A DNA stretch of 64,000 nucleotides from Sinomonas humi (GTDB lineage: Bacteria > Actinomycetota > Actinomycetes > Actinomycetales > Micrococcaceae), in the NCBI RefSeq assembly GCF_000802235.1, contig NZ_JTDL01000082.1:145683-209682 (forward strand), given 5' to 3'. A program made the position numbers and the translations under genes. Below are positions 3,706-28,209 of the stretch, one piece after another. The first letter of the stretch is position 1; the number at the start of each line of letters is the position of its first letter. The notes beneath the pieces were generated by a model. The model ran no database searches, had not been told where the DNA came from, and saw only the letters and a list, made by a program, of their open reading frames with translations.

Positions 3706-3719
<14 letters not shown>

Positions 3720-11873: not shown

Positions 11874-11898
11874 GATTCTCCTAGCGAGGTTGGTTGGC

Positions 11899-13547: not shown

Positions 13548-13588
13548 GACCTGCAGTCTTCCTCCATGCGTCCCAACATGTCGAACTT

Positions 13589-13607: not shown

Positions 13608-13613
13608 TAGGCT
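13608..13613 (+). promoter_or_regulatory. Candidate -10 box for leaderless IclR gene
   Basis: TAGGCT followed by 7 nt and the GTG start at 13621. The same hexamer at 7-8 nt precedes the starts at 37228 and 59154. Confidence 0.45.
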
Positions 13614-13620
13614 GGGTCTT

Positions 13621-14421
13621 GTGCCCCATGAGACCGCATTGCCACCCCAGGAGAACCGCCTGAACGCGCGAGACGCCGAACCTTCGCTTCCATCCGGAAC
13701 CCAGACGCTCGCGCGCGGCCTCGACATCATCCGCGCCGTGGCCGAGGGCGCACGCGATCTGAGGAGTGTCGCTGAGGCCACGGGGATCGGACGCAGTACC
13801 GCCCACCGGCTCGTACAGCTGCTCGATCGGTACGGCTACCTCCGAGTTGCAGGCGGGCGTGACTACGCTCTCGGCCCGGCGCTCATCGAATTCGGGTTCC
13901 AGGCACTCCACCAGAACCCATTGCCCGTCGTCGCCCGGCCCGTCCTCGAAGAGCTGGCCGAGAAGGTCCAGGACACCGTTCATCTGGCCATCGTCGACGG
14001 GGGCGAGGTTCTGTACCTCGACAAGATCGAGGGCACGCGTGGGGCTGAGATGCGCTCGCGGATCGGGCATCGCATGCCGCTCACGCGCACCGGCATCGGC
14101 AAGGCCCTCATCCTTGACCGGGACAGCGACTGGCAGCGGCTCTACGAGGCCGAACGCTCTGGGGACCCAGGCCGCGTCGAAGAGTTCCTCCGCCGAATGC
14201 ACGAGTACTCCCGGCATGGCGCCGCGATGGATCTCGAAGAGAATGAGCCCGGAATCCGCTGCGTTGCCGCCCCTATCCGAGACGCAGGGGCCAGCATCGT
14301 GGCTGCAGTCAGCGTTTCCGCGACCAAGCCGTTCATGCCCGCCCAACGGATGCGCGGACTCGTCCCGGTCGTCCAGAAGGCCGCCCGGTCAATCTCGAGA
14401 TCGCTCGGCTTCGCGGGCTGA
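13621..14421 (+). CDS. IclR-family transcriptional regulator, probable dgo regulator
   Basis: 266 residues with an N-terminal winged helix-turn-helix at about residues 25-85 (LARGLDIIRAVAEGARDLRS, then IGRSTAHRLVQLLDRYGYLR) and a C-terminal IclR ligand domain (VHLAIVDGGEVLYLDKIEG, RMPLTRTGIGKALIL, CVAAPIRD). Divergent from dgoK with a 73-bp gap holding a CATCCC/GGGATG dyad, so it likely senses galactonate or a breakdown product and controls the operon. Note that E. coli DgoR is GntR-type, so this is a different regulator class. The GTG start follows a -10-like box at leaderless spacing. Confidence 0.88.
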   Translation: MPHETALPPQENRLNARDAEPSLPSGTQTLARGLDIIRAVAEGARDLRSVAEATGIGRSTAHRLVQLLDRYGYLRVAGGRDYALGPALIEFGFQALHQNPLPVVARPVLEELAEKVQDTVHLAIVDGGEVLYLDKIEGTRGAEMRSRIGHRMPLTRTGIGKALILDRDSDWQRLYEAERSGDPGRVEEFLRRMHEYSRHGAAMDLEENEPGIRCVAAPIRDAGASIVAAVSVSATKPFMPAQRMRGLVPVVQKAARSISRSLGFAG

Positions 14422-14434: not shown

Positions 14435-14512
14435 GGTCACCTCCCGCGGGTCCACGTTTCCATGACCGACGGTAGGTGACTACTGAACGGGCGATGACCC
14501 GCGGGACGTGAC
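14435..14512. repeat. Copy of dispersed intergenic repeat (GTGACCACTGAACGG family)
   Basis: Contains GGTCACCTCCCGCGGGT, then GGTAGGTGACTACTGAACGG and GACCCGCGGGACGTGAC. The same blocks recur at 43601-43705. Here the element overlaps the 3' end of the minus-strand dehydrogenase gene and supplies its last codons (VTSRGSSPVQ, stop). Confidence 0.7.
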
Positions 14513-15562
14513 GGTTGGATGGCCGAATCGCAGCAGCACCTTGCCCGACGTCGAAGCATCCCTGGCGATGGCAAATGCCTCGAGCGCCTCGTCGACATCG
14601 AACACATGCGTGACCACGGCGGATGGATCGATCTCTCCCGCAGCGAGGGCCGCGATGACCTCGTCGATCTCATCGTTGAACCGGAAGGAGCCCACAAGCT
14701 CAAGCTCCCTTGCAATCGCGATCGAGACCGGCACTGGCTGGTCTCCTGGCGGCAGGAGGCCGAGCATGACGACCCGACCTCCTCGCGTGGCCGCCCTGAT
14801 GGCCGTCCGCAGCCCAGGGGCACTCCCCGAGGATTCGATCACGACGTCGGCGTCGAGGCCTTCGAGTTCGCTCGCCTCCGATGCGAGCACTGTCCGGCTC
14901 GCGCCGAGTTCCTTGGCACGCGCCAGGGGTGCCTCAAAGAGATCCGTCACGAAGATCTCGCCCGCGCCGTGGTGTGAGAGGACGGCGACGACGAGTGCGC
15001 CGATCGGACCGGCACCGACTACGAGAACGCGTCTGCCAGCGACGTCGCCAGCCTGCTTGACGGCATGCCACGCGACGCTGAGGGGCTCGATGAGGGCCGC
15101 TGTGCGCGCATCCAAGTCCCCCGGGATGGGCCGCAGCATGCGGGAGGGAAGGGCAACGACGTCGGCGAACGCGCCATTGCGGTGCGGGTGGGTCGCTGCG
15201 CTGCCGAGATAGGTCCCACCTGGCGAGAGGTTCGGGCGACTGGACGGGAACCTGGGGCCGTCGCCCGGCCCGGGAGTCGCGGGATGAACGGCGACGCGCA
15301 CACCCTCTGCGGGCCCGCTCCCATCTTCTGCAGAGCGCACAACGCGCCCGATGATTTCGTGGCCCAGCACGAGCGGATCCTTCAGGATCGACTCGCCGGC
15401 GGCCCCGTGCAGCCAGTAGTGGAGGTCAGAACCGCAAATTCCGCCGAGCTCGATGGCCACGAGGGATTCATCCGGTCCGGGGATCGGTGCCTCAAGAACG
15501 TCCACCCGGAGATCATCGCGTCCGTGCGCGACGACGGCGCGAACGCCCGCTTCTGTCTTCAT
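14480..15562 (-). CDS. Zinc-dependent alcohol dehydrogenase, L-idonate 5-dehydrogenase-like, without structural-zinc cysteines
   Basis: 360 residues, medium-chain dehydrogenase. Catalytic zinc ligands are visible: Cys in GGICGSDLHYW, His-Glu in LVLGHEIIG, and the later Glu in LIEPLSVAWHA; GAGPIGA is the NAD(P)-binding turn. The GICGSDLHYWLHG stretch is typical of L-idonate 5-dehydrogenases and their relatives. The lobe that normally holds four structural-zinc cysteines is present (HPATPGPGDGPRFPSSRPNL) but contains none. The last ten residues are encoded by a dispersed repeat element. It is convergent with the IclR gene, and its own promoter faces the aminotransferase gene. Confidence 0.85.
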   Translation of the reverse strand: MKTEAGVRAVVAHGRDDLRVDVLEAPIPGPDESLVAIELGGICGSDLHYWLHGAAGESILKDPLVLGHEIIGRVVRSAEDGSGPAEGVRVAVHPATPGPGDGPRFPSSRPNLSPGGTYLGSAATHPHRNGAFADVVALPSRMLRPIPGDLDARTAALIEPLSVAWHAVKQAGDVAGRRVLVVGAGPIGALVVAVLSHHGAGEIFVTDLFEAPLARAKELGASRTVLASEASELEGLDADVVIESSGSAPGLRTAIRAATRGGRVVMLGLLPPGDQPVPVSIAIARELELVGSFRFNDEIDEVIAALAAGEIDPSAVVTHVFDVDEALEAFAIARDASTSGKVLLRFGHPTVTSRGSSPVQ

Positions 15563-15685: not shown

Positions 15686-15700
15686 ATAAGTCGTGCTTAT
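15686..15700. promoter_or_regulatory. LysR-type (Nac-like) site 1, ATA-N9-TAT
   Basis: ATAAG-TCGTG-CTTAT, a perfect 5-bp dyad fitting ATA-N9-TAT and preceded by GTC. It lies about 40 nt upstream of a TATATA -10-like box at 15741-15746 and 95 nt before the aminotransferase start. Shares the GTCATAA half with the sites at 19220 and 23531. Confidence 0.6.
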
Positions 15701-15794: not shown

Positions 15795-17003
15795 ATGTCC
15801 GAGTACCAGCCGGCCTCGCGGGTCACCCGCATCCGGGAGTCCGCGAGCGTCCTTGCGGCGGCGCGGGTCCGCGAGCTCAAGGCAGAGGGCCGGTCAATCA
15901 TCGACCTCACAGTCGGTGAGCCGGACTTCGACACCCCGGACCACGTGAAGCAAGCCGCGATCGCCGCAATCGAGGCCGGTGAGACGAAGTACACGGCCGT
16001 CACGGGAACGCCCCAGCTTCGCTCGGCGATTTTGAACCACGTCGAGCGCCGCACCGGCATCCTCTACAGCGCCGCCGAGATCACCATCGCGGGTGGAGCG
16101 AAGCAGGTCATCTTCACAGCCTTCATGGCTTCGCTCAACGAGGGCGACGAGGTAATCGTCCCCGCCCCCTACTGGGTCTCCTACCCCGACATGGTCCTGG
16201 CCAACGACGGCACCCCCGTGATCGTCCCCTGCGGGGACGAGGTGGGCTTCAAGCTGACCCCAGAGGCTCTCGCCGCCGCCATCACGCCGGCTACGAAGTG
16301 GGTCATCCTCAACGCGCCCTCGAACCCGACCGGCGTCGTGTACACCCGGGCCGAGCTCGAGGCCCTCGCCGCCGTTCTGGAAGAGAATCCGGACGTCTAC
16401 GTCCTGACCGACGAGATCTATGACGAGATCTACTACGGCGAAGGGCAGATCACCAGCCTCGTCGGCGCCGCTCCGCAGCTCAGGGACCGCGTCCTCGTGG
16501 TCAACGGCGTCTCGAAGGCCTACGCGATGACCGGCTGGCGGCTGGGCTACGCCGTCGGGCCGGCTCCACTCGTCGCCTCGATCAACAAGCTCCAGTCCCA
16601 GATCTCCTCGTGCCCATCCTCCATCAGCCAGGCAGCCGCGACCGCCGCGCTCACAGGCGACCAGTCCTTCGTGGCCGAGTGCGTCGAGGCGTACCGCGAG
16701 CGGCGAGATGTCGCAGTAGCCGGCCTCAAGGCCGTCGAAGGCCTTGCCTGCGAAACACCACAGGGTGCGTTCTACGCCTACGTGAAGTGTGCGGGTGCCG
16801 TCGGTAAGACGACGCCCGATGGAGCCAGGATCGAAAATGACCAGGACTTCGTCCTCTACCTGCTCGACTCGGCATCGGTAGCGGTCATTCCGGGTTCGTC
16901 ATATGGCCTCGGACCATATTTCCGAATTTCTTTTGCCACCTCACTGGAGACCATTAAGGCCGGCGTAGAGGCTATCGATAAGGCCGTCCGTGCCCTCAAC
17001 TAA
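15795..17003 (+). CDS. Aspartate aminotransferase-family (class I) PLP enzyme
   Basis: 402 residues, fold-type I aminotransferase of the subgroup Ib style. Seen: DLTVGEPDFDTPDHVKQAA, YTAVTGTPQLR, PAPYWVSYPDM, NAPSNPTG, LTDEIYDEIYY, and the PLP lysine in VVNGVSKAYAMTGWRLGY, plus the substrate-carboxylate Arg in YFRISFATS. Start ATG 15795 has GGAGGAG upstream; the preceding about 230 bp is markedly AT-richer and carries promoter-like sequence. It is followed after 24 nt by the aldolase gene. In this context it may deaminate a glutamate derivative released by the oxoprolinase, using a 2-oxoacid acceptor; the substrate is inferred. Confidence 0.9.
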   Translation: MSEYQPASRVTRIRESASVLAAARVRELKAEGRSIIDLTVGEPDFDTPDHVKQAAIAAIEAGETKYTAVTGTPQLRSAILNHVERRTGILYSAAEITIAGGAKQVIFTAFMASLNEGDEVIVPAPYWVSYPDMVLANDGTPVIVPCGDEVGFKLTPEALAAAITPATKWVILNAPSNPTGVVYTRAELEALAAVLEENPDVYVLTDEIYDEIYYGEGQITSLVGAAPQLRDRVLVVNGVSKAYAMTGWRLGYAVGPAPLVASINKLQSQISSCPSSISQAAATAALTGDQSFVAECVEAYRERRDVAVAGLKAVEGLACETPQGAFYAYVKCAGAVGKTTPDGARIENDQDFVLYLLDSASVAVIPGSSYGLGPYFRISFATSLETIKAGVEAIDKAVRALN

Positions 17004-17027
17004 TCCCTCCAACTGAAAAAGAGAACC

Positions 17028-17711
17028 ATGGAACAGATGATCCACGTCAAGACCAAGTTCGAGCGCCCGGACGCCGATGTCGTCAAGCGCCTCTCTGCGT
17101 TTTCGTCGGCGACGATTCACGAGGCCCAGGGCCGCAAAGGCGCCCTCAGCTCGCGCATCAAGCCGATTGACCGCTCGATGTCCTTCTGTGGCCCTGCCGT
17201 CACCGTGCGCTGCGCCCCCCGAGACAACCTCATGCTCCAGGTGGCCATCCACTATGCGCAGGAGGGCGACGTCGTCCTCGTGGGCGCGGGCGAATTCACC
17301 GAGGCTGGGACGTTCGGCGACGTCCTCGGCAACGCCATGAAGGCCAAGGGAATCGCCGCGATGGTCACCGACTCGGGCGTCCGTGACACCGCAGACCTCA
17401 TCGAGCTCGGCCTCCCAGTGTTCTCGGGGAGCATTTCCATCAAGGGCACCGTCAAGGAGACGCTCGGGCCGATCAACCACCCGATCGTCATCGGCGACGA
17501 GGTCATCTACCCGGGTGACATCCTCAAGGGCGACGCCGACGGCGTCGTCGTCGTGCGGCGCGAGGAGGCCGAAGAGGTCATCGCGCTGTCTCAGGCCCGG
17601 GTCGACAAGGAGAACGAGCTCATCAAGGCCTACCACGCCGGTGGGACGACGATCGAGCTCTGCAACCTCACAGACGTCCTGAAGGACAAGGGCCTCTTGG
17701 TCGAGGACTGA
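17028..17711 (+). CDS. 4-carboxy-4-hydroxy-2-oxoadipate / 4-hydroxy-4-methyl-2-oxoglutarate aldolase-like (RraA fold)
   Basis: 227 residues, the length of class II pyruvate aldolases such as LigK/ProA. The catalytic D-X20-R-D signature is exact: Asp98 in GTFGDVLGN and Arg119-Asp120 in DSGVRDTAD. The family splits 4-hydroxy-4-substituted 2-oxoglutarates into pyruvate and a second oxoacid, and also decarboxylates oxaloacetate. True RraA RNase E inhibitors are shorter, so an enzyme is favoured. It follows the aminotransferase by 24 nt, so the pair could deaminate and then cleave a 4-hydroxy-4-substituted glutamate. No aromatic protocatechuate pathway genes are nearby. Confidence 0.87.
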   Translation: MEQMIHVKTKFERPDADVVKRLSAFSSATIHEAQGRKGALSSRIKPIDRSMSFCGPAVTVRCAPRDNLMLQVAIHYAQEGDVVLVGAGEFTEAGTFGDVLGNAMKAKGIAAMVTDSGVRDTADLIELGLPVFSGSISIKGTVKETLGPINHPIVIGDEVIYPGDILKGDADGVVVVRREEAEEVIALSQARVDKENELIKAYHAGGTTIELCNLTDVLKDKGLLVED

Positions 17712-17740
17712 TCCCCGCCTCATCAACAAGACTCGCTCAG

Positions 17741-17769
17741 CGCCCCCGTTCTCCGGAACGGGGGCGTTT
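17741..17769 (+). terminator. Rho-independent-type terminator after the aldolase gene
   Basis: 10-bp perfect stem CGCCCCCGTT / AACGGGGGCG with a 6-nt loop, followed by TTTCG. Confidence 0.8.
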
Positions 17770-17771
17770 CG

Positions 17772-17807
17772 CAGTTACCGAGAAACGTCAAGCAGTTACG
17801 GAGAAAC
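17772..17807. repeat. Tandem CAGTTAC(C/G)GAGAAAC repeat
   Basis: Two 15-nt copies at 17772-17786 and 17793-17807, period 21, differing at one base, placed between two terminator hairpins. Confidence 0.6.
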
Positions 17808-17842
17808 AAGAAGAGGGCCCTCCCGGGGGCCCTCTTCTTTCC
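17808..17842. terminator. Second hairpin terminator
   Basis: Perfect 13-bp stem AAGAAGAGGGCCC / GGGCCCTCTTCTT, followed by a short T run. It lies between the aldolase gene and the small minus-strand gene, so it may serve both directions. Confidence 0.8.
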
Positions 17843-17867
17843 TGCTGAATTTTTATCGAATCGCGCT

Positions 17868-18092
17868 CTACCAGATCGCTCCTTCTGCAACCCGCCGCTT
17901 CGCCTCGACAAGCATCCACTCAGCGCTTCCGCCGTCATGGGTGGGCATGATGCTTCCTTCGAAGACGAACAATGGCTCGCTCGGCGAATCGACGGGCTGC
18001 CAAAGTCCGTTGGTGGGGCAGTGCGTTCCTGTCCGAACGATCATGCTCTGGGACTTCCTCAGGTTCCAACTGGTGTGGCTGATCTTTTTCAT
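17868..18092 (-). CDS. Small YjzC-like protein, 74 residues or fewer
   Basis: Open frame containing MIVRTGTHCPTNGLWQPV and then LFVFEGSIMPTHDGGSAEW. The spacing CP-x-x-G-x-W ... G-x-x-MP ... W resembles small single-domain proteins of the YjzC type (P-x-x-G-x-Y ... G-x-x-x-PP ... W), known in Gram-positives and as Cys-bearing versions in proteobacteria. Function unknown. The start is uncertain: 18092 (MKKISHTSWNL) or 18044 (MIVRTG). It is the only gene-like sequence between the aldolase terminators and the LysR gene; base composition is less GC-rich than its neighbours. Confidence 0.5.
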   Translation of the reverse strand: MKKISHTSWNLRKSQSMIVRTGTHCPTNGLWQPVDSPSEPLFVFEGSIMPTHDGGSAEWMLVEAKRRVAEGAIW

Positions 18093-18263
18093 TTCAGGCT
18101 TCCTCGCGCTGCGTCAGCTGGTTTTCGCTGACTTAAGAATTGATCCGATAGCTCAATGGTAGGCAGCAGAATAGGGCGCTGAATAAGATCAAAGTCGAGT
18201 GCCTAGATAAGGCTCCGCTATGGATGGCCTCTGCGCCGGACAGGCACGGGGCGAGTTGGAGTC

Positions 18264-19193
18264 CTAGGCAGCGTCGCTCCCGTAGCGGGCGAGCAGCCGG
18301 TTCTTGATCATGTCCCGGAGCAGGATCAGCACGGCTGAGGCCGCCTCTGACATCGGCTCGTGGTCCGCCGTGCACAACCCGAACTTGACGTGCAGAGCCG
18401 GCTCGACGAGATGTCGCATTCTGAATCCGGCCTCGGGAAAGAGCGCGTCGGCCGCAGATCTGGGAAGAACCGTCGCCCCGAGATTGGCGTGGAGAAGCCG
18501 GCTCAGGGCGGGGACGGATTCCACTTCTCCAGCTATCCGGAGGGGAAGGCCCTGATCGGCGAACGCCTTGTCGAGGAGCCGCCGGACGGTGTGGTTGTCC
18601 TCAGGGAGGAAGAGAGGCAGCTGAGAGGCTTCCCGCAACGTGATCGACCGCTCGTCGGGCGAACCCTGGTCCACCTCCGGGCTTGCCACCACGTACAGGT
18701 CGTCCAGAATCATGCTCGTGAAGCGGACGCCCCGGGCTTCCCGTGGCTCGTAGATGAGAGCCATGTCCAGCCTGCCGTTCTTGATGGCATCGCTGAGGAC
18801 TCCCCCGAAGATCTCCGTCAGGTGCAAGGTGATGTCGGGATAGCGGCGCCCGACTTCCTGCACGATGGCAGGCGCCAGGCTTGAGGCCATGCAGTAGGGC
18901 GCCATCGCGATGGCAACGCGTCCCGAGGGCGCTGCACCGGACCGCTCGACGTCCTGGCGGGCCTGTTCCACGAGCCGAAGGATCGATTGGGCATGCCGGT
19001 ACAGGGCGTTGCCCGCGGCAGTCGGCTCGACACCCTGCTTGCTCCGGATCAGCAGCCGCTGCTTGAGTTCCTTCTCAAGGGCGGATACCTGTTGGCTGAG
19101 GGCCGGCTGCGCGACATGCAGCGCCGCCGCGGCCTTCGTGATGCTGCCCGAGTCTACGATCCTGACAAAGTATTCGAGCTTCCGGGTGTCCAC
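18264..19193 (-). CDS. LysR-family regulator, Nac-like
   Basis: 309 residues. The N-terminal winged HTH (MDTRKLEYFVRIVDSGSIT, KAAAALHVAQPALSQQVSAL) is closest in style to the Nac/Cbl-type LysR branch; the rest is the usual two-lobed effector domain (VAIAMAPYCMASSLAPAIV, MALIYEPREARG, LFLPEDNHTVRRLLD). GTG start at 19193 with AAAGGTG upstream. An ATA-N9-TAT site lies 27 nt before the start codon, and two more sites with the same left half precede the aminotransferase and pxpA genes. It probably controls itself and these operons in response to a pathway compound. Confidence 0.9.
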   Translation of the reverse strand: MDTRKLEYFVRIVDSGSITKAAAALHVAQPALSQQVSALEKELKQRLLIRSKQGVEPTAAGNALYRHAQSILRLVEQARQDVERSGAAPSGRVAIAMAPYCMASSLAPAIVQEVGRRYPDITLHLTEIFGGVLSDAIKNGRLDMALIYEPREARGVRFTSMILDDLYVVASPEVDQGSPDERSITLREASQLPLFLPEDNHTVRRLLDKAFADQGLPLRIAGEVESVPALSRLLHANLGATVLPRSAADALFPEAGFRMRHLVEPALHVKFGLCTADHEPMSEAASAVLILLRDMIKNRLLARYGSDAA

Positions 19194-19219
19194 TGTCTTT
19201 CACCTTTCGAGGTCCCGTC

Positions 19220-19234
19220 ATAACAGATCAGTAT
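19220..19234. promoter_or_regulatory. LysR-type (Nac-like) site 2, ATA-N9-TAT
   Basis: ATA-ACAGATCAG-TAT, preceded by GTC, in the divergent region between the LysR gene and the solute-binding-protein gene. Well placed for autoregulation and control of the importer. Confidence 0.6.
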
Positions 19235-19426
19235 GTCGGGACACAGAAGCTGTCTTTGTGTGACCCAGACCTCAAACGCTAGTTTGAAGCTAATGGCCAG
19301 ACCGCAATGCCGCTGTCTTGGTCAGCCCGATTTCTAGTCTTTCCGGAAAATCACTCATCGAGCCATCCAACTCGATCATTCCGCAACGTATCAATTCAAG
19401 CTGCTTGCCCCGAGAAAGAGCGTATT

Positions 19427-20509
19427 ATGGGATTTTACACGAAGTACCGCACGGCGGCCACGGCTCTCGCCGCCGCCTCAGTTCTCGCCCTTTCTGCTTG
19501 TGGAGGCGGCAGTACTCCCCAAGCTGGCTCATCGACTTCGGGCGAAGTTAACATCATCGCCTACGCCTCCGTCTGGCAGGACCAGTACACCGCAGCCGTT
19601 ATCAAGCCGTTCGAGGCGAAGTTCCCGAATATCAAGGTCAACTACGTTGCGAAGCGATCGTCCGCGGACATGCTCAGCGCATTGCAGGGGCAGAAGAGCA
19701 AGCCGAATACCGACGTCGCGATCATGGACCAGTCGGTCTCCCAGAGCGGCAACCAGCAGGGCCTCTTCGCCAAGATCGACCAGAGCACCGTCCCTAACCT
19801 CGCTAACGTGCCGGACAAGTTCAAGGACAAGAATGGCTACGGACCAGTCGACATGCTGGACGCCATCGGGCTCGTGTACGACACGAAGACGTTCCCCACT
19901 CCCCCGAGCAGCTGGAACGCCCTGTGGGACAAATCGAACTGCGGCAAGGTCAACGTGGTCGCTCCGCCGTCCCTCCTTGGCCTCTCCCTGACCGCGATCA
20001 CCTCCAATATGCAGGGCGAGGACTACACGAAGAGCATCGACAAGGGAGTGGCGAAGCTCAAGCAACTCGCCCCCTGCATCCAGACGTTCTCGCCCCAGCC
20101 TGACGAGTACCAGAACGTCATCACCGGCCAAACCGTCCTCGGACTTGGGCAGAACGCCCGCGGGCAGTTCTATGCCGACCAGACTGGCAAGAAGATCGGT
20201 GTGGCCTTCCCGAAGGAGGGCACGGCCTACCAGATCAACACGATCAACCTGATCAAGAATGCCCCGCACTCAGCAGCAGCGAACACGTTCATCAACTACG
20301 CCCTCTCGGCAGAGGCTCAGGAAGCATTCGCGAAGGATCTCTTCTACGCTCCGTCCGTGAGCAACGCGGTCCTTCCGGCCGATGTGAAGTCCCGAGTGGT
20401 ACCGACCGACGGATCGCTCAAGATCCTTCCGCTTGACGTCGACTTCATGGCTTCGATCCGCGACAAGTGGACGCAGACCTGGAAGCAAGAAATCATCCCG
20501 GCCAAGTGA
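19427..20509 (+). CDS. Extracellular solute-binding lipoprotein of a PotD-like ABC importer
   Basis: 360 residues. Signal peptide with lipobox LALSAC (Cys about residue 26), then a Gly/Ser linker and a type II periplasmic-binding-protein fold (VNIIAYASVWQDQYTAAVIK, PFEAKFPNIKVNYV, FVNYALS-like INYALSAEAQEAF near the end). PotD/AfuA-like binding proteins carry small charged organics; the ligand here is unknown. ATG 19427 has GAAAGAG upstream and gives a clean signal peptide. The next gene starts at or just after its stop, so the four importer genes form one unit. Confidence 0.9.
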   Translation: MGFYTKYRTAATALAAASVLALSACGGGSTPQAGSSTSGEVNIIAYASVWQDQYTAAVIKPFEAKFPNIKVNYVAKRSSADMLSALQGQKSKPNTDVAIMDQSVSQSGNQQGLFAKIDQSTVPNLANVPDKFKDKNGYGPVDMLDAIGLVYDTKTFPTPPSSWNALWDKSNCGKVNVVAPPSLLGLSLTAITSNMQGEDYTKSIDKGVAKLKQLAPCIQTFSPQPDEYQNVITGQTVLGLGQNARGQFYADQTGKKIGVAFPKEGTAYQINTINLIKNAPHSAAANTFINYALSAEAQEAFAKDLFYAPSVSNAVLPADVKSRVVPTDGSLKILPLDVDFMASIRDKWTQTWKQEIIPAK

Positions 20510-20553
20510 TGACCGTGCTTCCTCAGCTCGCCCCTCTCAGGAAAGTCAATCCC

Positions 20554-21687
20554 GTGAATTCAGCCAACACCGTGGGTTCGTCGAAGCTGTCCATTGTCGA
20601 CCTCACGAAGCGATACGCCCCTGGGCTGGAGCCAGCCGTGGACCGTCTGTGCATGGATGTCGAGGAGGGCCACCTCGTGGCCCTCCTCGGCCCCTCAGGC
20701 TGCGGCAAGACGACCACGCTGCGCATGGTCGCAGGGCTCATGGACCCCACCGCCGGCTCTATTGTGGTCGACGGCAAGGACATCACCCAGACACCTGTGA
20801 ACAAGCGCGGAATGGGGATGGTCTTCCAGTCCTATGCCCTCTTCCCACATATGGATGTGGCGCAGAACGTCGCTTTCGGCCTTCAGATGCGCAAGGTGCC
20901 TTCCGGGGAACAGGCCAAGCGCGTGAATGCTGCTCTCGAAATGGTCAAGCTCGCGCACCTCTCGAAGAGGAAGGTACGTGAGCTCTCAGGTGGGCAGCAG
21001 CAGCGTATTGCGCTCGCCCGTGCCCTGGTGGTGGAACCGACCCTCCTGCTCCTGGACGAGCCGCTGTCGAATCTGGACGCCAAGCTGCGCGAGACCATGC
21101 GCAGTGAGATCCGGTCGATTCAACAGCGCACGAAGGCGACCACGTTGTTCGTCACCCATGACCAGGACGAGGCGCTTGACATGGCCGACCGGATCGCTGT
21201 CATGAACGGCGGGCTGATCGAGCAGTACGACACGCCGGCGATGGTCTATGAACGTCCCACGACCCGATTCGTGGCCGACTTCATCGGCCAAGCCAACTTC
21301 CTCACCGCGCAGGTCCTCTCTGAGAACGGACAAGCCGCGGACGGCGAGCGGTACTACAAGGTCGAGGTCGGCGGACTTGGCCGCTACAGTGCCGTTGGCG
21401 CTCCCGGACTCGCGGGAAGCAGCCGGGAGATCGTGATCCGTCCGCACAGGCTCCGTGCCTCGCTCCACCCCCGCCCCGGAGACGATGCGATCGCTGGAAC
21501 GATCGAACGTGTGAGCTATACCGGCGACACGATCGCCTTCGCCGTCCGCGTCGGGGACCGGAGACTGCTGGCACAGTCAATGACCTCGAGCGCGGATATG
21601 CCTCGCACAGGCGATGCAGCATACCTTTCTTGGGAAGCCGCTGACGCATTCCTCCTCCCCGGGCACATCAGAGGGTCAGGCACATGA
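20554..21687 (+). CDS. ABC transporter ATP-binding protein, PotA/FbpC-type
   Basis: 377 residues. Walker A GPSGCGKTT, Q-loop VFQSYALFPHM, signature LSGGQQQRIALARAL, Walker B LLLLDEPLSNLD, H-loop VTHDQDEAL, then a C-terminal TOBE domain (about residues 240-377; EIVIRPHRLRA, RVSYTGDTIAF). I prefer GTG 20554, which has AGGAAAG 8 nt upstream; the ATG at 20509 overlapping the previous stop is the alternative and adds 15 residues. Energises the importer encoded by the flanking genes. Confidence 0.92.
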   Translation: MNSANTVGSSKLSIVDLTKRYAPGLEPAVDRLCMDVEEGHLVALLGPSGCGKTTTLRMVAGLMDPTAGSIVVDGKDITQTPVNKRGMGMVFQSYALFPHMDVAQNVAFGLQMRKVPSGEQAKRVNAALEMVKLAHLSKRKVRELSGGQQQRIALARALVVEPTLLLLDEPLSNLDAKLRETMRSEIRSIQQRTKATTLFVTHDQDEALDMADRIAVMNGGLIEQYDTPAMVYERPTTRFVADFIGQANFLTAQVLSENGQAADGERYYKVEVGGLGRYSAVGAPGLAGSSREIVIRPHRLRASLHPRPGDDAIAGTIERVSYTGDTIAFAVRVGDRRLLAQSMTSSADMPRTGDAAYLSWEAADAFLLPGHIRGSGT

Positions 21688-22607
21688 CCGCCCCAACCGA
21701 GACCCAGCAACTCATGTCGGTGCGCGCCGGCGTTCTGCCGGGCGCACTCGAGAAGGCCAAAGCAGCACGGGACCGCCGAACGTACCTCCTGCTCCTGCTC
21801 CCCGCGATCTTGGGGCTCTTCGCAACCTTCCTTCTGCCGCTCGGCTATATGGTCAAGATGTCCTTCGACAGGGGCGCACCGGACGGCGTCATCGAAAGCG
21901 CCTTCACCCTTGATTCCTACGTTCGAGCGCTCTCCGACCCCTACTACTGGCAGGTCATCTGGAATACCTTCCAGATGGGCATCATCGTCGGGGTCCTCTG
22001 TGTCCTGGTGTCCTATCCGATCGCACTGTTCCTCGTTCGGACTAGGAGCAGATTCAGGGGACTCCTCATGGCCGTGGCCGTCGCCCCCCTGCTTACCTCG
22101 GCCATCGTCCGCACCTACGGCTGGATGGTGATCCTCGGCTCGAACGGGCTCGTCAACTCCTCGCTCCACAGCATGGGCCTGATAGACGCACCGCTCAAGC
22201 TCACCAACAACATGACGGGCGTCGAGATCGGTCTGGTCGAGATCTTCATGCCCTACGCCATCCTCACCATGGTCTCGGGCTTCGGCCGCCTCAGCTCCCA
22301 ACTCGAGGAGGCCGCCGGTTCCCTCGGAGCGAACGGCTTCCAGGTCTTCGCGCGCATCACGCTCCCGCTTAGCCTTCCGGGCGTGCTCGCATCGTTCCTG
22401 ATGGTGTTCGTCCTCACCATCAGTACCTTCGTAACCCCGACGCTCCTTGGCGGCGGAACCGTGCAGGTGCTCGCAACAGAGATCTACGACCAGACCACCG
22501 GAGTCCTGAACTGGCCGTTCGCAGCAGCACTCTCGGTCATCCTTCTGGCACTCTTCGGCGCCATCATCGCCGTCTACCAGCGGCTCACCAGGAAGATCGG
22601 AGGCTAG
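21684..22607 (+). CDS. ABC transporter permease, PotB-type
   Basis: 307 residues with six predicted membrane helices. The EAA loop for docking to the ATPase is LEEAAGSLGANGFQVFARIT. The N-terminal cytoplasmic leader (about 35 residues) precedes the first helix LLLLLPAILGLFATFLLPLG. The ATG overlaps the stop of the ATPase gene (ATGA), so translation is coupled. Confidence 0.92.
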   Translation: MTAPTETQQLMSVRAGVLPGALEKAKAARDRRTYLLLLLPAILGLFATFLLPLGYMVKMSFDRGAPDGVIESAFTLDSYVRALSDPYYWQVIWNTFQMGIIVGVLCVLVSYPIALFLVRTRSRFRGLLMAVAVAPLLTSAIVRTYGWMVILGSNGLVNSSLHSMGLIDAPLKLTNNMTGVEIGLVEIFMPYAILTMVSGFGRLSSQLEEAAGSLGANGFQVFARITLPLSLPGVLASFLMVFVLTISTFVTPTLLGGGTVQVLATEIYDQTTGVLNWPFAAALSVILLALFGAIIAVYQRLTRKIGG

Positions 22608-22609
22608 CG

Positions 22610-23440
22610 GTGCAGCAAACATTGGCCGTTGACGAAGCTCCACCCTTCAAGCCGCGGCGCAGAATCGGCAGACCAGCCTTCGGGACCCTCCTGTTCCTCC
22701 TCTATATTTTCCTGCTTGCACCGCTGCTGATCGTTTTCGTCATCGCATTCGAATCGAATCAATATCTCTCGTTTCCGCCGCAGGGGTTCACGCTCAAATG
22801 GTTCGAGATGCTGCCGAGTGAGAGCATCTTCGTCGACGGGATGAAGGTCACGCTCGTCGTCGCGGCGAGCGTCACCGTGATCGTGCTCGCAATCGGGGTG
22901 CCTGCCGCCCTCGCGCTCGACAGGTACGAATTCAAAGGGAAGGGCGCGCTCCATGCGTTCTTCCTCTCGCCCCTCCTCGTGCCGAGCATCGTCCTGGCCC
23001 TCGGGCTCGTGCTCATCCTCACCCCGCTCGGGCTCACCAACACTTACGAGGGAATCATCATCGGGCACGTTGCCATCACGTTTCCCTTCGTGGTGAGAAC
23101 CACCCTCATGAGCCTGACCACCGCCGACACATCCTGCGAGGCGGCCGCACGCATCCTCGGCGCAGGGGCTTGGACCGTGTTCCGGCGCATCACGCTCCCG
23201 CTCATCCGCTCAGGTGTCATTGCAGGCGGAATCATCGCCTTCATCGTCTCGTTCGATGAAGCCGTGATCTCCCTCTTCGTTGCCGGATCCGGGCTCCCGA
23301 CGCTTCCCGTCCAAATATTCCAGTACGTTTCGAACTCGGCGGACGCAGCCGTCGCAGCCCTCTCAGTCGTCCTGATCCTCATCTCGCTCGGCGTGGTAGT
23401 CGTGGTCGAGCGGGTGATGGGCCTGAGGAAGGCGCTCTAG
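22610..23440 (+). CDS. ABC transporter permease, PotC-type
   Basis: 276 residues, six predicted helices, EAA loop CEAAARILGAGAWTVFRRIT. GTG start 2 nt after the previous stop. With the partner permease, ATPase and binding lipoprotein it completes a spermidine/putrescine-, iron- or phosphonate-type importer. A strong hairpin follows, separating it from the pxp genes. Confidence 0.92.
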   Translation: MQQTLAVDEAPPFKPRRRIGRPAFGTLLFLLYIFLLAPLLIVFVIAFESNQYLSFPPQGFTLKWFEMLPSESIFVDGMKVTLVVAASVTVIVLAIGVPAALALDRYEFKGKGALHAFFLSPLLVPSIVLALGLVLILTPLGLTNTYEGIIIGHVAITFPFVVRTTLMSLTTADTSCEAAARILGAGAWTVFRRITLPLIRSGVIAGGIIAFIVSFDEAVISLFVAGSGLPTLPVQIFQYVSNSADAAVAALSVVLILISLGVVVVVERVMGLRKAL

Positions 23441-23468
23441 AACTCTTCTCCACCGGGCAACTCCCTCC

Positions 23469-23504
23469 AGACCCGCCGTCGGCCATCCGGCCGGCGGCGG
23501 GTCT
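23469..23504 (+). terminator. Hairpin terminator after the importer operon
   Basis: 16-bp stem with one mismatch (left arm AGACCCGCCGTCGGCC) and a 4-nt loop. It splits importer and pxp genes into separate or only partly linked transcripts. Confidence 0.75.
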
Positions 23505-23530
23505 ACCTGTCCGTCCACGTGTCCTAGGTC

Positions 23531-23545
23531 ATAACGCTGGCCTAT
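23531..23545. promoter_or_regulatory. LysR-type (Nac-like) site 3, ATA-N9-TAT, overlapping a 14-bp palindrome
   Basis: ATA-ACGCTGGCC-TAT preceded by GTC, about 136 nt before pxpA. Its right half overlaps the perfect palindrome CTATCCCGGGATAG at 23542-23555. Third member of the GTCATAA-N8-TAT set. Confidence 0.6.
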
Positions 23546-23680
23546 CCCGGGATAGACGATCAGTCTTTGTTCAGGGGGCTCCGGCGATGAGACGATCAAG
23601 TAGGACAAAATGCGGGACGCCGCAGGCGAAATATCCCGACATTCGAAAGACCATTCTCAAGACCGCGAAAAGAGCAACTC

Positions 23681-24469
23681 GTGAACCCCATGATCGACCT
23701 CGTGGCAGATCTCGGCGAAGGATTTGGCGCATATCGGATCGGGAATGACCCCGAGCTTCTCGAAATCGTCTCAAGCGCCAATATCGCGTGCGGGTTCCAT
23801 GCGGGAGATCCGGACATCATGAACTTCACGGTGGCAGAATGCGTCCGCCGCGGCGTGGGCATTGGAGCCCATCCGAGCTTCCCGGACCTCCGTGGATTTG
23901 GCCGCCGCACGATGGACCTGAGTGAAGACGAGGTCCGCAACGACGTCCTCTACCAGCTCGGAGCCCTTTCGGCGTTCGCCGCCATGCACAGCGGTCGCGT
24001 TGCTCACGTTGCGCCTCACGGGCGCCTTGGGAACCTCGTCGCCGTGCGCCCCGATTACGCTGCCGCCGTCGTCGACGCGGCTGCCGGTGTCGACGAGGAT
24101 CTCATCGTCGTCGCCCAGGAGGGAGAACTCGCCAAAGCGGCCCGCGCCCGCGGGCTGCGCGTCGGCGTCGTCGGGATCGTTGACCGTGCGTATCAGGAGG
24201 ACGGCACCCTCGTCCCGCGCAGCCTTCCCGGCGCGGTGCTCCACGACCCTCACGCGATCGTTGATCGGACCGTCCGCATGGTGTGCGAGCGGAAGCTGCA
24301 AACCACCTCGGGCGTCGACATCGACATCGAGGCCGACACGGTCCTGCTGCACGGCGACAACGAAGGAGCGGTGAAGTTGGCCCGGCTCATCCGCTCCGAG
24401 CTCACTTCCGCGGGTGTCCACATCGCACCTCTGGCCGAGGTGCTGGCTGCGAAGCATCCGGTGGCCTGA
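23681..24469 (+). CDS. pxpA: 5-oxoprolinase subunit A-like (LamB/YcsF family), divergent
   Basis: 262 residues, LamB/YcsF-type deacetylase-like fold. PxpA with PxpBC hydrolyses 5-oxo-L-proline to glutamate using ATP. Conserved parts seen: DLVADLGEGFGAYRIG, SSANIACGFHAGDPDIM, GIGAHPSFPDLRGFGRR, LYQLGALSAF, RAYQEDGTLVPRS and LLHGDN. Changed parts: the family's HVKPHGALYN reads HVAPHGRLGN (Lys lost) and EVFADR reads GIVDR. These are in the presumed active site, so activity or substrate may differ. GTG 23681 or ATG 23690 starts it. It is 2 nt from pxpB. Confidence 0.85.
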   Translation: MNPMIDLVADLGEGFGAYRIGNDPELLEIVSSANIACGFHAGDPDIMNFTVAECVRRGVGIGAHPSFPDLRGFGRRTMDLSEDEVRNDVLYQLGALSAFAAMHSGRVAHVAPHGRLGNLVAVRPDYAAAVVDAAAGVDEDLIVVAQEGELAKAARARGLRVGVVGIVDRAYQEDGTLVPRSLPGAVLHDPHAIVDRTVRMVCERKLQTTSGVDIDIEADTVLLHGDNEGAVKLARLIRSELTSAGVHIAPLAEVLAAKHPVA

Positions 24470-24470
24470 G

Positions 24471-25193
24471 ATGCCTACGTTCGCACCTTCCCCCGTAGAT
24501 GTCTTCGAGTCCGGAGATGCCGCATTGCGCGTCGTCGCGAAGTCCGGCGATTCCGAGCGGGACTGGAACACCGTCCACCGGCTCGCCGAATGGCTCGAGA
24601 TGTGCGGCGCGGAGGGCCTGCGCGGGGCGGTCGCCACGTATGACTCGGTGCTGGTGGAGTTCGATGTCCTCGCCGTCTCGGCACGCCAGATGCGTGCCTT
24701 CGTCGGCTTGGGTATGCGGCAGCTTGCGCTTTCCGCGGACGACGACGGCTCCCCCCGAGCCTTCGACGTCCCCGTTGTGTACGGGGGCGACTTCGGGCCG
24801 GATCTTTCCGACGTGGCCGAGCAGCAAGGTCTTTCAGTCGACGACGTCGTCCGCCTCCATTCGTCCAAGACCTACATCATCCGCTGCCTTGGAGCACCCG
24901 CCGGATCGCCCATGATGGACGGCCCTGACTTTCCGCTTCCGGTGCCGCGTCTCAAGGACCCGCGCCTGAGCGTTCCGGCCGGAGCTGTTTCGGTAGCGGG
25001 GCGCCAGGCGGTCATCGCTCCTGCGGTCGCACCTGGTGGTTGGCGCGTGATCGGCCAGACCCCTCTTGCCCTCCTCGACATTTCTCGCGAGCCCCTCGTG
25101 CCCTACCGGCCGGGTGATGTGCTCCGCTTCCGGCCGATCCCGGAAGAGGAGTTCGCGGCGTACGCAGGCAGGATGATGGAGGCCCACGCATGA
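24471..25193 (+). CDS. pxpB: 5-oxoprolinase subunit B-like (KipI family), divergent
   Basis: 240 residues, KipI/allophanate-hydrolase subunit 1 fold. The N-terminal domain (FESGDAALRVVAKSGDSERD) and the cyclophilin-like C-terminal domain (VPVVYGGDFGPDLSDVAEQQ, PRLSVPAGAVSVAG, APGGWRVIGQTPLALLD) are clear. The usual loop GF-x-PGFP-x-LGGL is replaced by GAPAGSPMMDGPDFP, and QTGIYP by QAVIAP. Starts 1 nt after the pxpA stop; stop overlaps the pxpC ATG. Confidence 0.87.
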   Translation: MPTFAPSPVDVFESGDAALRVVAKSGDSERDWNTVHRLAEWLEMCGAEGLRGAVATYDSVLVEFDVLAVSARQMRAFVGLGMRQLALSADDDGSPRAFDVPVVYGGDFGPDLSDVAEQQGLSVDDVVRLHSSKTYIIRCLGAPAGSPMMDGPDFPLPVPRLKDPRLSVPAGAVSVAGRQAVIAPAVAPGGWRVIGQTPLALLDISREPLVPYRPGDVLRFRPIPEEEFAAYAGRMMEAHA

Positions 25194-26194
25194 AGGGCCA
25201 GCTCATCGTTCGTCAGGCCGGCAACTCGGTCGTGACGGATCTAGGGAGGTTCCGCGGCCCGCGCTATGGGCTCCCGGTGAACGGCGCACTGGACCAGTAT
25301 TCGGCTAGGGCCGCCAATATCCTCGTCGGGAACGACGAAAATGCACCGCTCGTGGAACTTACTGCTCTCGACTTCAGGATGACTGTCACCACTGACGTTC
25401 TGATCTCTGTCACGGGTGCGCCGCTTACACTGACGGTCTCAAACCGGGAATGTCCCCTCTGGCAGCCGGTTTCCGTGGCGGCAGGAGAGACAGTCGCGAT
25501 TCGAGGGATCCACGGTGGCCTGCGCGCCTACTTGGCTGTCCATGGGTCCGTCGACGCGCCCACCCTGCTCGGCAGCTGCACACCCGACACCGTTGTCGGG
25601 TTTGGGCTCCAGCTTCGGGAGGGAATGGTGCTCGAGACCCGTTGCAGCCTCGGCCCTCTCCGTCAGCCCTATTTCGACATGCCGCTCTTCCGCTTCGGAG
25701 CGGAGCGACCCCCCGTGGGACATGAGCTGGTTGTCTCGGTCACCGACGGGCCGGACTTCGCCGAGTTCGGCGATTCGGCCAACCTTCTCTTCACGTCGGA
25801 ATACCGAGTCAGCCCCCGGAGCAACCACATTGGACTGCGCCTTGGCGGCAGGCTCCCGGAGAGGACGACCACGGGAGAGGTGCTTTCGCGCGGAGTCCCT
25901 GTCGGCGCCATCGAAGTCCCATCACGTGAGGAACTCCTCGTCCTGCATCGGGGTCGCGGTGTCACTGCGGGCTACCCAGTCCTCGCCGTGGCCACGAGCC
26001 TCGGGCTCGATGTCCTGGCCCAAGCGCGGCCCGGTGACACCGTTCACTTTGTGAGGACGACAGTCTCCGAGGCAACCATCGCCTACCGGCGTTCGATGCT
26101 CGAACTCGAAACCCTTCGGAAATCCGTTGGCACCGCCTTCGGCCTCCTCGGCATCCCGAGCCCAGGGGGCGGCCAGGATCTTCCGGCCGCCTGA
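25190..26194 (+). CDS. pxpC: 5-oxoprolinase subunit C-like (KipA/biotin-dependent carboxyltransferase fold), divergent
   Basis: 334 residues, partner of PxpB. Seen: TDLGRFRGPRYGLPVNGALD, ANILVGNDENAPLVELT, GLRAYLAVHGSVDAPTLLGS and SEYRVSPRSNHIGLRLGG. Family motifs that differ: TIQDLGR reads VVTDLGR, the TGAD turn reads TGAP, SRST after the LGS reads CTPD, and the DRQTTGGYP region reads GRGVTAGYP. Overlap ATGA with pxpB. Divergence in all three subunits together suggests a shared shift of substrate rather than decay, since every frame is intact. Confidence 0.88.
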   Translation: MKGQLIVRQAGNSVVTDLGRFRGPRYGLPVNGALDQYSARAANILVGNDENAPLVELTALDFRMTVTTDVLISVTGAPLTLTVSNRECPLWQPVSVAAGETVAIRGIHGGLRAYLAVHGSVDAPTLLGSCTPDTVVGFGLQLREGMVLETRCSLGPLRQPYFDMPLFRFGAERPPVGHELVVSVTDGPDFAEFGDSANLLFTSEYRVSPRSNHIGLRLGGRLPERTTTGEVLSRGVPVGAIEVPSREELLVLHRGRGVTAGYPVLAVATSLGLDVLAQARPGDTVHFVRTTVSEATIAYRRSMLELETLRKSVGTAFGLLGIPSPGGGQDLPAA

Positions 26195-26284
26195 GCCGTA
26201 CCGTTCCAAAATCCAACCTACCTGCCACCAACAAGCCACCTCGGTCGTGCTATCAACGGCACCGCCCAGTCCTTTGGAGAATCG

Positions 26285-27034
26285 ATGACATTCGCCGACT
26301 ACAAGACCGCACTCGTCACAGGCGCTTCGACCGGCATGGGAGCGGCCATCGCGGCGCTCCTGGCCAAGCGGGGCCTGACGGTCCATGCCGCTGCCCGCGG
26401 CGAGGAACGCCTCAGGGAACTCGCCGAGCGAACGGGCTCCATTTCCCACGCTCTCGATCTCACCGATACGGCGGCAGTGGCCGCCGAGCTCGGCGGACTC
26501 GAGATCGACATTCTCGTCAACTGCGCCGGCGTCTCCCGGCCGGGCAACATCCTCAGCTCCTCTGAGGAGGATCTCGACGAGATCATCGACGTCAACCTCC
26601 GGGGTCTGCTCCAGCTGACCCGTCTGATCCTGCCGGGGATGGTGGAGCGGGATCTTGGCCACATCGTCAACATCAGCTCGATCGCCGGCGTCTACAACTT
26701 CTACGGGCACACGGCCTACCACGCCACCAAGGCAGCCGTGCACCAGATCTCCCGCCAGCTGCGCAATGACACCGTGGGCAAGCGCATCCGTGTCACCGAG
26801 GTCTGCCCCGGCCGAGTTGAGACGGAGATCTTCGGACGCAATCTGGGCGGTTCGCCCGAGGCGATGGAAGAAGCCTGGAATACGTACTACGAGGGCTACG
26901 AGTCGTTGACCACCGACGACATTGTCAACGCCGTCGACTACGCCATAGAGGCTCCCCGGCACGTCAACATCGGCATGCTCGAGATCATGCCGACCTTCCA
27001 GGTCCCGGGCGGCCTCACCTTCGACCGGCGCTGA
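26285..27034 (+). CDS. SDR-family 3-hydroxyacid dehydrogenase-like, YdfG-type
   Basis: 249 residues, classical SDR. TGASTGMG cofactor motif, NCAGVSRPG, catalytic NISSIAG and YHATKAA, then the YdfG-like end in which the family uses VCPGRVETEIF and APRHVNIGMLEIMPT. YdfG oxidises serine, 3-hydroxyisobutyrate and similar 3-hydroxy acids with NADP. ATG 26285 with GGAGA upstream. It lies 90 bp after pxpC on the same strand and is the last gene of the putative pathway block; it could act on a hydroxyacid or carbonyl product of the aldolase. Confidence 0.85.
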   Translation: MTFADYKTALVTGASTGMGAAIAALLAKRGLTVHAAARGEERLRELAERTGSISHALDLTDTAAVAAELGGLEIDILVNCAGVSRPGNILSSSEEDLDEIIDVNLRGLLQLTRLILPGMVERDLGHIVNISSIAGVYNFYGHTAYHATKAAVHQISRQLRNDTVGKRIRVTEVCPGRVETEIFGRNLGGSPEAMEEAWNTYYEGYESLTTDDIVNAVDYAIEAPRHVNIGMLEIMPTFQVPGGLTFDRR

Positions 27035-27693: not shown

Positions 27694-28209
27694 ATGGACA
27701 ACTCGACGCTGCACATCGTCGTGATGGGCGTCTCGGGATGCGGAAAGAGCACGGTCGGCACGCTCCTCGCCCGGGAGGTGGGCGGCGTCTTCCTCGACGG
27801 CGATGAGCTTCACCCTCAGGCCAACGTCACCAAGATGGCGGCCGGCATCCCCTTGGACGACGCCGACAGGGAACCCTGGCTCCGTGAGGTCGGGCGGCGC
27901 CTGAAGGACTCCGAGGCGCCGCTCGTCATCGCCTGCAGCGCGCTGAAGCGGTCCTACCGGGACCTTGTCCGCGCGAGCGCCCCGCAGGCCCTCTTCGTCC
28001 ACCTTCACGGCACGCGAGAGCTGCTTACCACCCGCATGGCCGCGCGCCCCGGGCATTTCATGCCCCTCTCCCTCCTTGATTCTCAGCTCTCGACCCTTGA
28101 ACCGCTCGGCTCAGACGAGTCAGGAATCCAGCTCGACATCGCCCAGACGCCGGAGTCCATCGTGGAACGGGCGGCAGCGTGGGCTCGGAAGCCTCTCCTG
28201 CACGCCTAG
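27694..28209 (+). CDS. Gluconokinase
   Basis: 171 residues, GntK/IdnK type. P-loop GVSGCGKST at about 12-20, then FLDGDELHPQANVTKMAAG and LDDADREPWLREV, VIACSALKRSYRD, and RPGHFMPLSLLDSQLSTLEP, all diagnostic. Phosphorylates D-gluconate to 6-phosphogluconate. It is 35 nt after the unknown protein. The L-idonate-dehydrogenase-like gene at 14480 could feed it in principle, but the two are far apart. Confidence 0.93.
   Translation: MDNSTLHIVVMGVSGCGKSTVGTLLAREVGGVFLDGDELHPQANVTKMAAGIPLDDADREPWLREVGRRLKDSEAPLVIACSALKRSYRDLVRASAPQALFVHLHGTRELLTTRMAARPGHFMPLSLLDSQLSTLEPLGSDESGIQLDIAQTPESIVERAAAWARKPLLHA

Follow-up and report, generated by a model that had tools for sequence, protein, structure and literature searches.

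A 5-oxoprolinase-type gene set joined to a pyruvate aldolase in Sinomonas humi and in a second phylum

Homologues of PxpABC, which opens the ring of 5-oxoproline at the cost of ATP, are usually read as enzymes of pyroglutamate recycling. Why, then, does a 64,000-nucleotide stretch of the 4.4-Mb Sinomonas humi draft genome (contig NZ_JTDL01000082.1; hereafter the window) hold PxpABC in one block with an aminotransferase, a class II pyruvate aldolase, a LysR-type regulator, a four-gene ATP-binding cassette (ABC) importer and a short-chain dehydrogenase/reductase (SDR)? An earlier note, made from the sequence alone, had proposed a linked pathway of lactam import and cleavage. All of the genes that it listed were confirmed in position, with open frames and in the families it had named (Pfam and NCBIfam models; Table 1). 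It had overlooked a 74-residue gene, four ATA-N9-TAT boxes, a gluconokinase and an L-idonate 5-dehydrogenase-like gene.

Co-occurrence of the two halves in two phyla

The block is real, and its two halves, the aminotransferase with the aldolase and the importer with the pxp genes, belong together. The separation elsewhere that the earlier note had named as telling against it was not seen: the halves co-occur, wherever the sequence reaches, in the 25 close loci found with PxpC, in 7 of 98 genomes and in a second phylum, and they share a box. When a species-genome collection was scanned with PxpC as the only query, 39 loci came up, of which 25 are close relatives (69–81% identity; L003 to L027); close versions of the set lie in Sinomonas, Arthrobacter and Pseudarthrobacter. 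The regulator and all three Pxp subunits are present in 25 of these 25 loci, the aldolase in 24, and the aminotransferase and the SDR in 23 each, and every absence coincides with the end of a contig or of the locus (the L011 contig measures 6.9 kb, L012 starts inside the block, and L014 and L019 stop before the SDR). Where related actinobacterial loci hold the core SDR, it is 82–89% identical. The other 14 PxpC loci were excluded from the actinobacterial counts; two of them (L036 and L038) are the proteobacterial version described below, and the remaining 12 have neither aminotransferase nor aldolase in the stretch covered. The importer, counted as a block member by the earlier note, is present in the window but is not a fixed part of the set, as 10 of the 25 related loci carry it; a major facilitator superfamily (MFS) transporter gene follows PxpC in 20 of 25.

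When 98 genomes, S. humi included, were searched separately with PxpA, the aldolase and the aminotransferase (for the last, the best 19 candidates at most per genome), close matches to PxpA (at least 72%), the aldolase (at least 82%) and the aminotransferase (at least 71%) fell in the identical 7 genomes. Distant PxpA relatives are common, with some match in 84 of the 98, and aldolase relatives of 36–45% occur in 11 further genomes. Among 396 genomes drawn evenly across Actinomycetota, with at most six candidates scored per genome, the core SDR was found at E 1e-70 in its own genome only, among the matches listed, and the set therefore looks restricted within this phylum. Two genomes, G009 and G010, also hold a second PxpA (59%) and a second aldolase (65–66%), and a paralogous cluster near the first (L076 2409–19997; L078–L079) comprises a LysR gene, PxpABC, an aldolase, an MFS gene, several dehydrogenases and a box. 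In L003 (15486–18283), the core SDR occurs a second time (89%), behind an MFS gene that has a box to itself.

A relative of the overlooked 74-residue gene stands at the same position in all 25 loci (26 of 26 with the window). Its invariant columns, in 21 aligned sequences, include H24, C25, P26, FVFEGS at 42–47, M49 and P50. There are 142 relatives in 5.8 billion proteins; among the 120 matches listed, the named ones are Micrococcaceae and none has a Pfam domain. The protein itself falls in no Pfam family (best Imm72, E 0.023, below cut-off), and its predicted structure, of middling confidence (mean predicted local distance difference test score 74.1), gave no fold match (best E 0.98).

Outside the Actinobacteria, L036 (Agrobacterium rubi) and L038 (Rhizobium sp. 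Leaf262) carry genes for a biotin carboxyl carrier protein-like and an accC-like protein, PxpB, PxpC, PxpA, the aminotransferase, LysR, the SDR and the aldolase, together with an ABC importer of the polar amino acid type. Plasmid searches with the rhizobial aldolase (222 records), the rhizobial SDR (181) and the window SDR (178) supplied nine further loci, so that the 11 proteobacterial loci were reached by PxpC, SDR or aldolase. All 11 hold PxpABC, the aminotransferase, a NAC-like LysR gene, the SDR and, nearby, an RraA-family protein, mostly with an importer other than that of the window. One is on plasmid pRL10 of R. johnstonii 3841 and has no sugar-acid genes at the locus; in L063 (A. vitis), the aldolase lies away from the operon. 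Identity to the window is 52–60% for the SDR, 45–63% for the aminotransferase, 37–42% for LysR and, L059 and L061 excepted, 53–66% for the aldolase. Horizontal transfer of the set is our guess.

Two further rhizobial regions suggest that lactam opening, transamination and keto-acid breakage are a recurring theme. R. johnstonii L060 (10001–17703) has the aminotransferase (62%), a NAC-like LysR gene, a HyuB-type oxoprolinase, an aldolase/citrate-lyase family gene and an SDR, the last only 34% identical to the window SDR, which limits the comparison; S. meliloti L066 (4011–14704) has hydantoinase/oxoprolinase genes, the aminotransferase, kdgD and an aldehyde dehydrogenase.

A NAC-like regulator and its candidate boxes

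The regulator scores just under the NAC cut-off (Table 1), NAC being its nearest family by far, and is therefore named NAC-like rather than NAC; its rhizobial counterparts are annotated nac. The form ATA-N9-TAT, which we take to be a NAC-type site, occurs four times in the 64 kb, always inside the block, as against 0.31 expected, and four were reached in 0 of 100 shuffles. The survey of the box covered the window and the 25 close loci, which are related and are not independent events, with expectations drawn from order-1 Markov sequences of the same stretches. A box lies upstream of the aminotransferase in all 20 loci that reach far enough (the other 6 of the 26 were too short; 0.57 expected). 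PxpA has one upstream in 25 of 26 loci (0.72 expected), the small gene in 23 (1.28) and LysR in 21 (1.4). Nine of the 11 proteobacterial loci, among them a near-identical pair, have it 87–91 nt upstream of the SDR; L064 has it at 141 nt, and L073 has none near the SDR.

Across the whole genome there are 39 such sites as compared to 21 for a reversed control pattern, and most single sites are therefore meaningless. One site outside the block, ATAAGGGAAGCCTAT on contig C143, precedes an MFS gene by about 250 nt; it was picked by eye for its form and is the sole outside site whose surroundings were inspected. This MFS gene is 88% identical to one that lies close to six further, distinct clusters (L003, L017, L018, L021, L078 and L080; L081 is the same record as L003), and each of those copies has a box 197–334 nt upstream. 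According to passages of PMC12016517, the ATA-N9-TAT form has been footprinted for another LysR-type protein, BhbR1. We infer that the NAC-like protein may bind the boxes as its predicted sites, and the gene set is likely co-regulated, with most of its genes under this one regulator. The linked pathway of the earlier note thus gains a regulator-type box shared by both halves, while its substrate stays a proposal.

Sugar-acid neighbours, proposed route and alternatives

Aminotransferases of the aspartate type act on glutamate-like acids, and the best solved-structure match of the window enzyme is 6f35, named aspartate aminotransferase B. PxpA, PxpB and PxpC lie side by side and are predicted to form a 5-oxoprolinase-type ring opener. 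The earlier note had called it divergent, which suits PxpB and PxpC, both below their equivalog cut-offs (125.3 against 145.55 and 149.1 against 500), and is less apt for PxpA, which passes subfamily models only. Aldolases of the type that acts on 4-hydroxy-4-methyl-2-oxoglutarate (HMG) and 4-carboxy-4-hydroxy-2-oxoadipate (CHA) split a tertiary 4-hydroxy-2-oxo acid into pyruvate and R-CO-COOH. The window aldolase passes NF006731 and scores below TIGR02798 (LigK/PcmE; 199.6 against 304.5). Its D98, R119 and D120 form the D-X20-R-D motif, presumably the mark of the family, and with N67 and K143 they all match the solved HMG/CHA aldolase 3noj. The class II pyruvate aldolase of the earlier note therefore stands, and by its predicted features the enzyme is of the HMG/CHA type. 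The 3noj enzyme, from Pseudomonas putida F1, belongs to the same sequence family; its equivalent residues are N71, R123, D124 and K147, of which R123 and D124 are numbered by alignment and N71 and K147 have their roles described in passages of PMC5065237. The two differ in setting: the P. putida enzyme ends aromatic ring-cleavage pathways (same passages), whereas the window aldolase sits with an aminotransferase and a lactam opener.

Past the SDR, the set commonly runs into a sugar-acid module. Sequence of 7.7 kb or more past this gene is available for 19 actinobacterial loci; 16 of these continue into a 2-hydroxyacid dehydrogenase, a gluconate-5-dehydrogenase-like SDR (SDR2) and an idonate-dehydrogenase-like gene, and L003 has a gluconokinase, SDR2 and the 2-hydroxyacid dehydrogenase past the SDR and the idonate-dehydrogenase-like gene beside the aminotransferase. 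At least three of the four module genes occur in 6 of the 11 proteobacterial loci (L038, L058, L061, L062, L065 and L073); in L061 (Microvirga), a box precedes SDR2, the first gene of the module. Between phyla, SDR2 is 52–54% and gluconokinase 54–57% identical. The window retains two members, the gluconokinase, which passes its family model and is 57% identical to that of L058, and the idonate-dehydrogenase-like gene across a box from the aminotransferase, whose product is 63% identical to that of the IdnD-like gene downstream of the SDR in L015. Both the window protein (Table 1) and that of L058 (376.5) score below the L-idonate 5-dehydrogenase cut-off of 469. In L063, a 31% IdnD-like match is annotated as 2,3-butanediol dehydrogenase. 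The paralogous cluster of G009 and G010 likewise joins PxpABC and an aldolase with distantly related dehydrogenases.

On this basis, the lactam of a 4-hydroxy-4-substituted glutamate would be imported, its ring opened by PxpABC at the cost of ATP, and the opened amino acid transaminated; the aldolase would then cleave the product, giving pyruvate plus another 2-oxo acid, likely a keto-hexonate. The 2-hydroxyacid dehydrogenase, the idonate-dehydrogenase-like enzyme, SDR2 and the gluconokinase would convert this second product to 6-phosphogluconate, with idonate and 5-ketogluconate as intermediates. Both the sequence of reactions and all substrates are our inference, built on gene content, the two-phylum neighbourhood, matching occurrence, the boxes and the aldolase motif; the whole reading of import, ring opening, transamination and aldolase cleavage, with genes mostly under one NAC-like LysR protein, is one to which we give slightly less than even confidence. 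A transporter gene is the neighbour of the core SDR in 9 of the 11 proteobacterial loci, and the same holds for the 19 actinobacterial loci with both an MFS gene and the SDR; an early step, on the compound just taken up, is therefore probable for this enzyme.

Since the recurrent module would take the second product to 6-phosphogluconate, the side chain is probably polyhydroxylated; we lean to such a chain because a tetrahydroxybutyl group as R would yield a 2-keto-hexonate and give every enzyme but the core SDR a step. Of the substrates suggested by the earlier note, monatin-like compounds and 4-hydroxy-4-methylglutamate, the general shape of a 4-hydroxy-4-substituted glutamate lactam is kept as a proposal, and the small gene and the sugar-acid module shift the side chain toward a polyhydroxylated one. 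Monatin-like substrates were rejected: literature on monatin, hydroxyglutamate and hydroxypyroglutamate shows, in the titles and abstract openings of the matches listed, no such bacterial pathway. The specific candidate, which would belong to an unrecognised class of compounds, is a C9 sugar-amino acid lactam, that of 4-hydroxy-4-(tetrahydroxybutyl)glutamate, formally the carbon skeleton of alanine joined to a 2-keto-hexonate, from which the aldolase would release pyruvate and a 2-keto-hexonate (e.g., 2-keto-L-gulonate) bound for 6-phosphogluconate. The published active site of the HMG/CHA aldolase is large relative to its known substrates; we nevertheless regard this particular structure as unlikely.

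Several observations weigh against the proposed route. Two of the 19 actinobacterial loci with flank (L004 and L025) have no sugar-acid module downstream, and none was recognised at 5 of the 11 proteobacterial loci (L036, L057, L059, L063 and L064); gluconokinase occurs in only 7 of the 25 actinobacterial loci. The window itself is without SDR2, a 72% relative of which lies on contig C60 of the genome, and without the 2-hydroxyacid dehydrogenase, of which the genome has no close copy (best 36%). Between phyla, IdnD is 35–38% and the 2-hydroxyacid dehydrogenase 28–31% identical, and because this is low their functions are family guesses. The core SDR has no fixed step in the scheme. Of the 26 loci, 3 have no box before the small gene, 1 has none before PxpA and 5 have none before LysR. 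In place of the aldolase, L059 and L061 have a distant RraA-family protein (∼31%, with G for the first D of the motif), and the L064 aldolase has E at that position. The aminotransferase alone is not diagnostic, since 9 of 10 plasmid loci taken by it lack PxpABC, and it was rejected as a marker of the set. Finally, PxpC is only 25–31% and PxpA 41–47% identical between the window and the 11 proteobacterial loci, the latter barely above the 42% that separates the window PxpA from the other PxpA of its genome, so that ring opening need not target the same bond; set against the rest, these low values make the aminotransferase, aldolase, SDR and regulator look like a stable core around which the ring-opening enzyme and importer vary.

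How far do other readings account for the same locus? If the substrate were instead the lactam of 4-hydroxy-4-methylglutamate or 4-carboxy-4-hydroxy-2-aminoadipate, cleavage would give two pyruvates or pyruvate plus oxaloacetate, and the sugar-acid genes would be unrelated neighbours drawn from one plant-associated gene pool. HMG and CHA are known substrates of this aldolase type (passages of PMC5065237), the window enzyme matches the solved one in motif and residues, and no module is present or recognisable at L004, L025, L036, L057, L059, L063 and L064; the recurrence of the module in two phyla, its weaker relatives beside the second paralogous cluster and the box before its first gene in L061 nevertheless make this account unlikely. 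Plain pyroglutamate use, the simpler alternative of the earlier note, would have PxpABC produce glutamate, the aminotransferase pass the glutamate nitrogen on to a keto acid such as oxaloacetate, and the aldolase do no more than decarboxylate oxaloacetate. Such decarboxylase activity is known in the aldolase family (passages of PMC5065237), the aminotransferase model is named for aspartate transaminase, and growth of C. glutamicum on 5-oxoproline requires pxpTABC (passages of PMC13274462). The C. glutamicum system, however, consists of transporter, PxpABC and regulator, the word "aldolase" being absent from the available text of that paper, and plain pyroglutamate use leaves the recurring sugar-acid module and the SDR unexplained. 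Moreover, the S. humi genome holds a second pxp locus (contig C22; L089 7285–11093, minus strand) with an accC-like gene and with no aminotransferase, aldolase or box within the 17 kb examined, and for that reason plain pyroglutamate use is the less likely, indeed a rather improbable, explanation. An N-linked conjugate of a sugar and 5-oxoproline, of Amadori or opine type (e.g., deoxyfructosyl-5-oxoproline or agropinic acid), whose lactam PxpABC would open, whose sugar would enter the gluconate branch and whose released glutamate would pass to the aminotransferase and aldolase, accounts jointly for the lactam and sugar-acid genes. The two binding proteins, that of the window and a rhizobial one (L057 13080–13916), also show weak structural matches, among many others, to proteins that bind agropine (6hly, E 4.4e-7) and deoxyfructosyl amino acids (5l9o, E 7.3e-12). 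Those matches are broad-family, however; the annotated clusters contain no annotated amadoriase or opine-cleaving gene, although FAD or sarcosine oxidase genes lie farther out in L062 and L063, and the conserved aminotransferase and aldolase would be superfluous, so that the conjugate is improbable.

Layout of the window and significance

The block comprises more than one operon, as a hairpin follows the aminotransferase and aldolase genes and the regulator and small gene lie on the opposite strand (Table 1).

Table 1 Features of the block and its flanks in the window
Feature	Coordinates	Strand	Basis or remark
L-idonate 5-dehydrogenase-like Zn alcohol dehydrogenase	14480..15562	-	best NCBIfam L-idonate 5-dehydrogenase, 231.8 bits; divergent from aminotransferase across first box
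ATA-N9-TAT box, between idonate-dehydrogenase-like gene and aminotransferase	15686..15700		
Aspartate-type aminotransferase	15795..17003	+	NF004769 686.6 bits, cut-off 617
Class II pyruvate aldolase, predicted HMG/CHA type	17028..17711	+	NF006731 226.8 bits, cut-off 179
Terminator-like hairpin after aldolase, GC-rich with T run	17741..17770	+	by eye from sequence; no terminator scan run
Small conserved gene, 74 residues	17868..18092	-	TG-x-HCP...FVFEGS-x-MP
ATA-N9-TAT box, upstream of small gene	18207..18221		
LysR-type regulator, NAC-like	18264..19193	-	nearest family NAC, 304.3 bits, cut-off 309
ATA-N9-TAT box, between LysR and importer	19220..19234		
ABC importer, solute-binding protein	19427..20509	+	SBP_bac_8
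ABC importer, ATPase	20509..21687	+	ABC_tran and TOBE_2
ABC importer, permease 1	21684..22607	+	BPD_transp_1
ABC importer, permease 2	22610..23440	+	BPD_transp_1
ATA-N9-TAT box, upstream of pxpA	23531..23545		
PxpA	23681..24469	+	LamB_YcsF 292.4 bits; NF003814 319.1 bits, cut-off 226
PxpB	24471..25193	+	CT_C_D; below TIGR00370 cut-off
PxpC	25190..26194	+	CT_A_B; below NF045499 cut-off
Core SDR, YdfG-like	26285..27034	+	best family YdfG 163.7, below cut-off 411
Open reading frame, 179 residues	27119..27658	+	no Pfam or NCBIfam match; kept after SDR in Sinomonas-type loci
Gluconokinase, GntK/IdnK type	27694..28209	+	TIGR01313 186.8 bits, cut-off 113.75

Weak relatives of the 179-residue open reading frame lie upstream of the aminotransferase in some Arthrobacter loci. 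D-galactonate genes (10725–13781, minus strand), encoding the dgoD dehydratase, the dgoA 2-keto-3-deoxy-6-phosphogalactonate aldolase and the dgoK kinase, adjoin the idonate-dehydrogenase-like gene. Farther out, a 711-residue open reading frame (2385–4520, minus strand) matches subunit I of V-type ATP synthase below the cut-off, a protein that to our knowledge is not expected in this bacterial group.

Partial likenesses to known systems exist. The caprolactam pathway of Pseudomonas jessenii reportedly also joins ATP-dependent lactam opening to a following aminotransferase, but is said to use a HyuAB-type caprolactamase, and we know of no pyruvate aldolase in it. An idonate route is encoded by the E. 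coli idn genes. The fungal glucuronate pathway through 2-keto-L-gulonate, L-idonate and 5-ketogluconate likewise combines a 2-keto acid reductase with idonate steps (passages of PMC4870679). In C. glutamicum, pxpTABC and PxpR also unite PxpABC with a dedicated importer and a regulator in an actinobacterium, but the regulator is a GntR-type repressor, the transporter belongs to the APC superfamily, and the route is described as ending at glutamate (passages of PMC13274462). No paper joining L-idonate with 5-oxoprolinase was found among the literature matches listed, and the passages of three R. leguminosarum papers (PMC3333776, PMC11103875 and PMC6421345) do not treat the pRL10 cluster; pRL100415, presumed to be an older locus tag there, is listed once in one further paper (PMC7105596). 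A peanut-exudate study, in whose passages pxpA is up-regulated with no aminotransferase or RraA-type aldolase alongside (PMC10061817), was not used.

The gene set is a variant built from known enzyme families, new as far as the literature searched shows. In Micrococcaceae and rhizobia, gene position, co-occurrence and shared promoter boxes all tie PxpABC to a pyruvate aldolase, and most loci that reach far enough also carry a sugar-acid branch. The set predicts a soil or plant compound that was not found named in the literature searched and offers a short list of its shapes, and an overlooked recycling route thereby becomes testable. If the C9 proposal were true, compounds of this kind, derived from plants or from ascorbate, would constitute a rhizosphere nutrient that has been overlooked.

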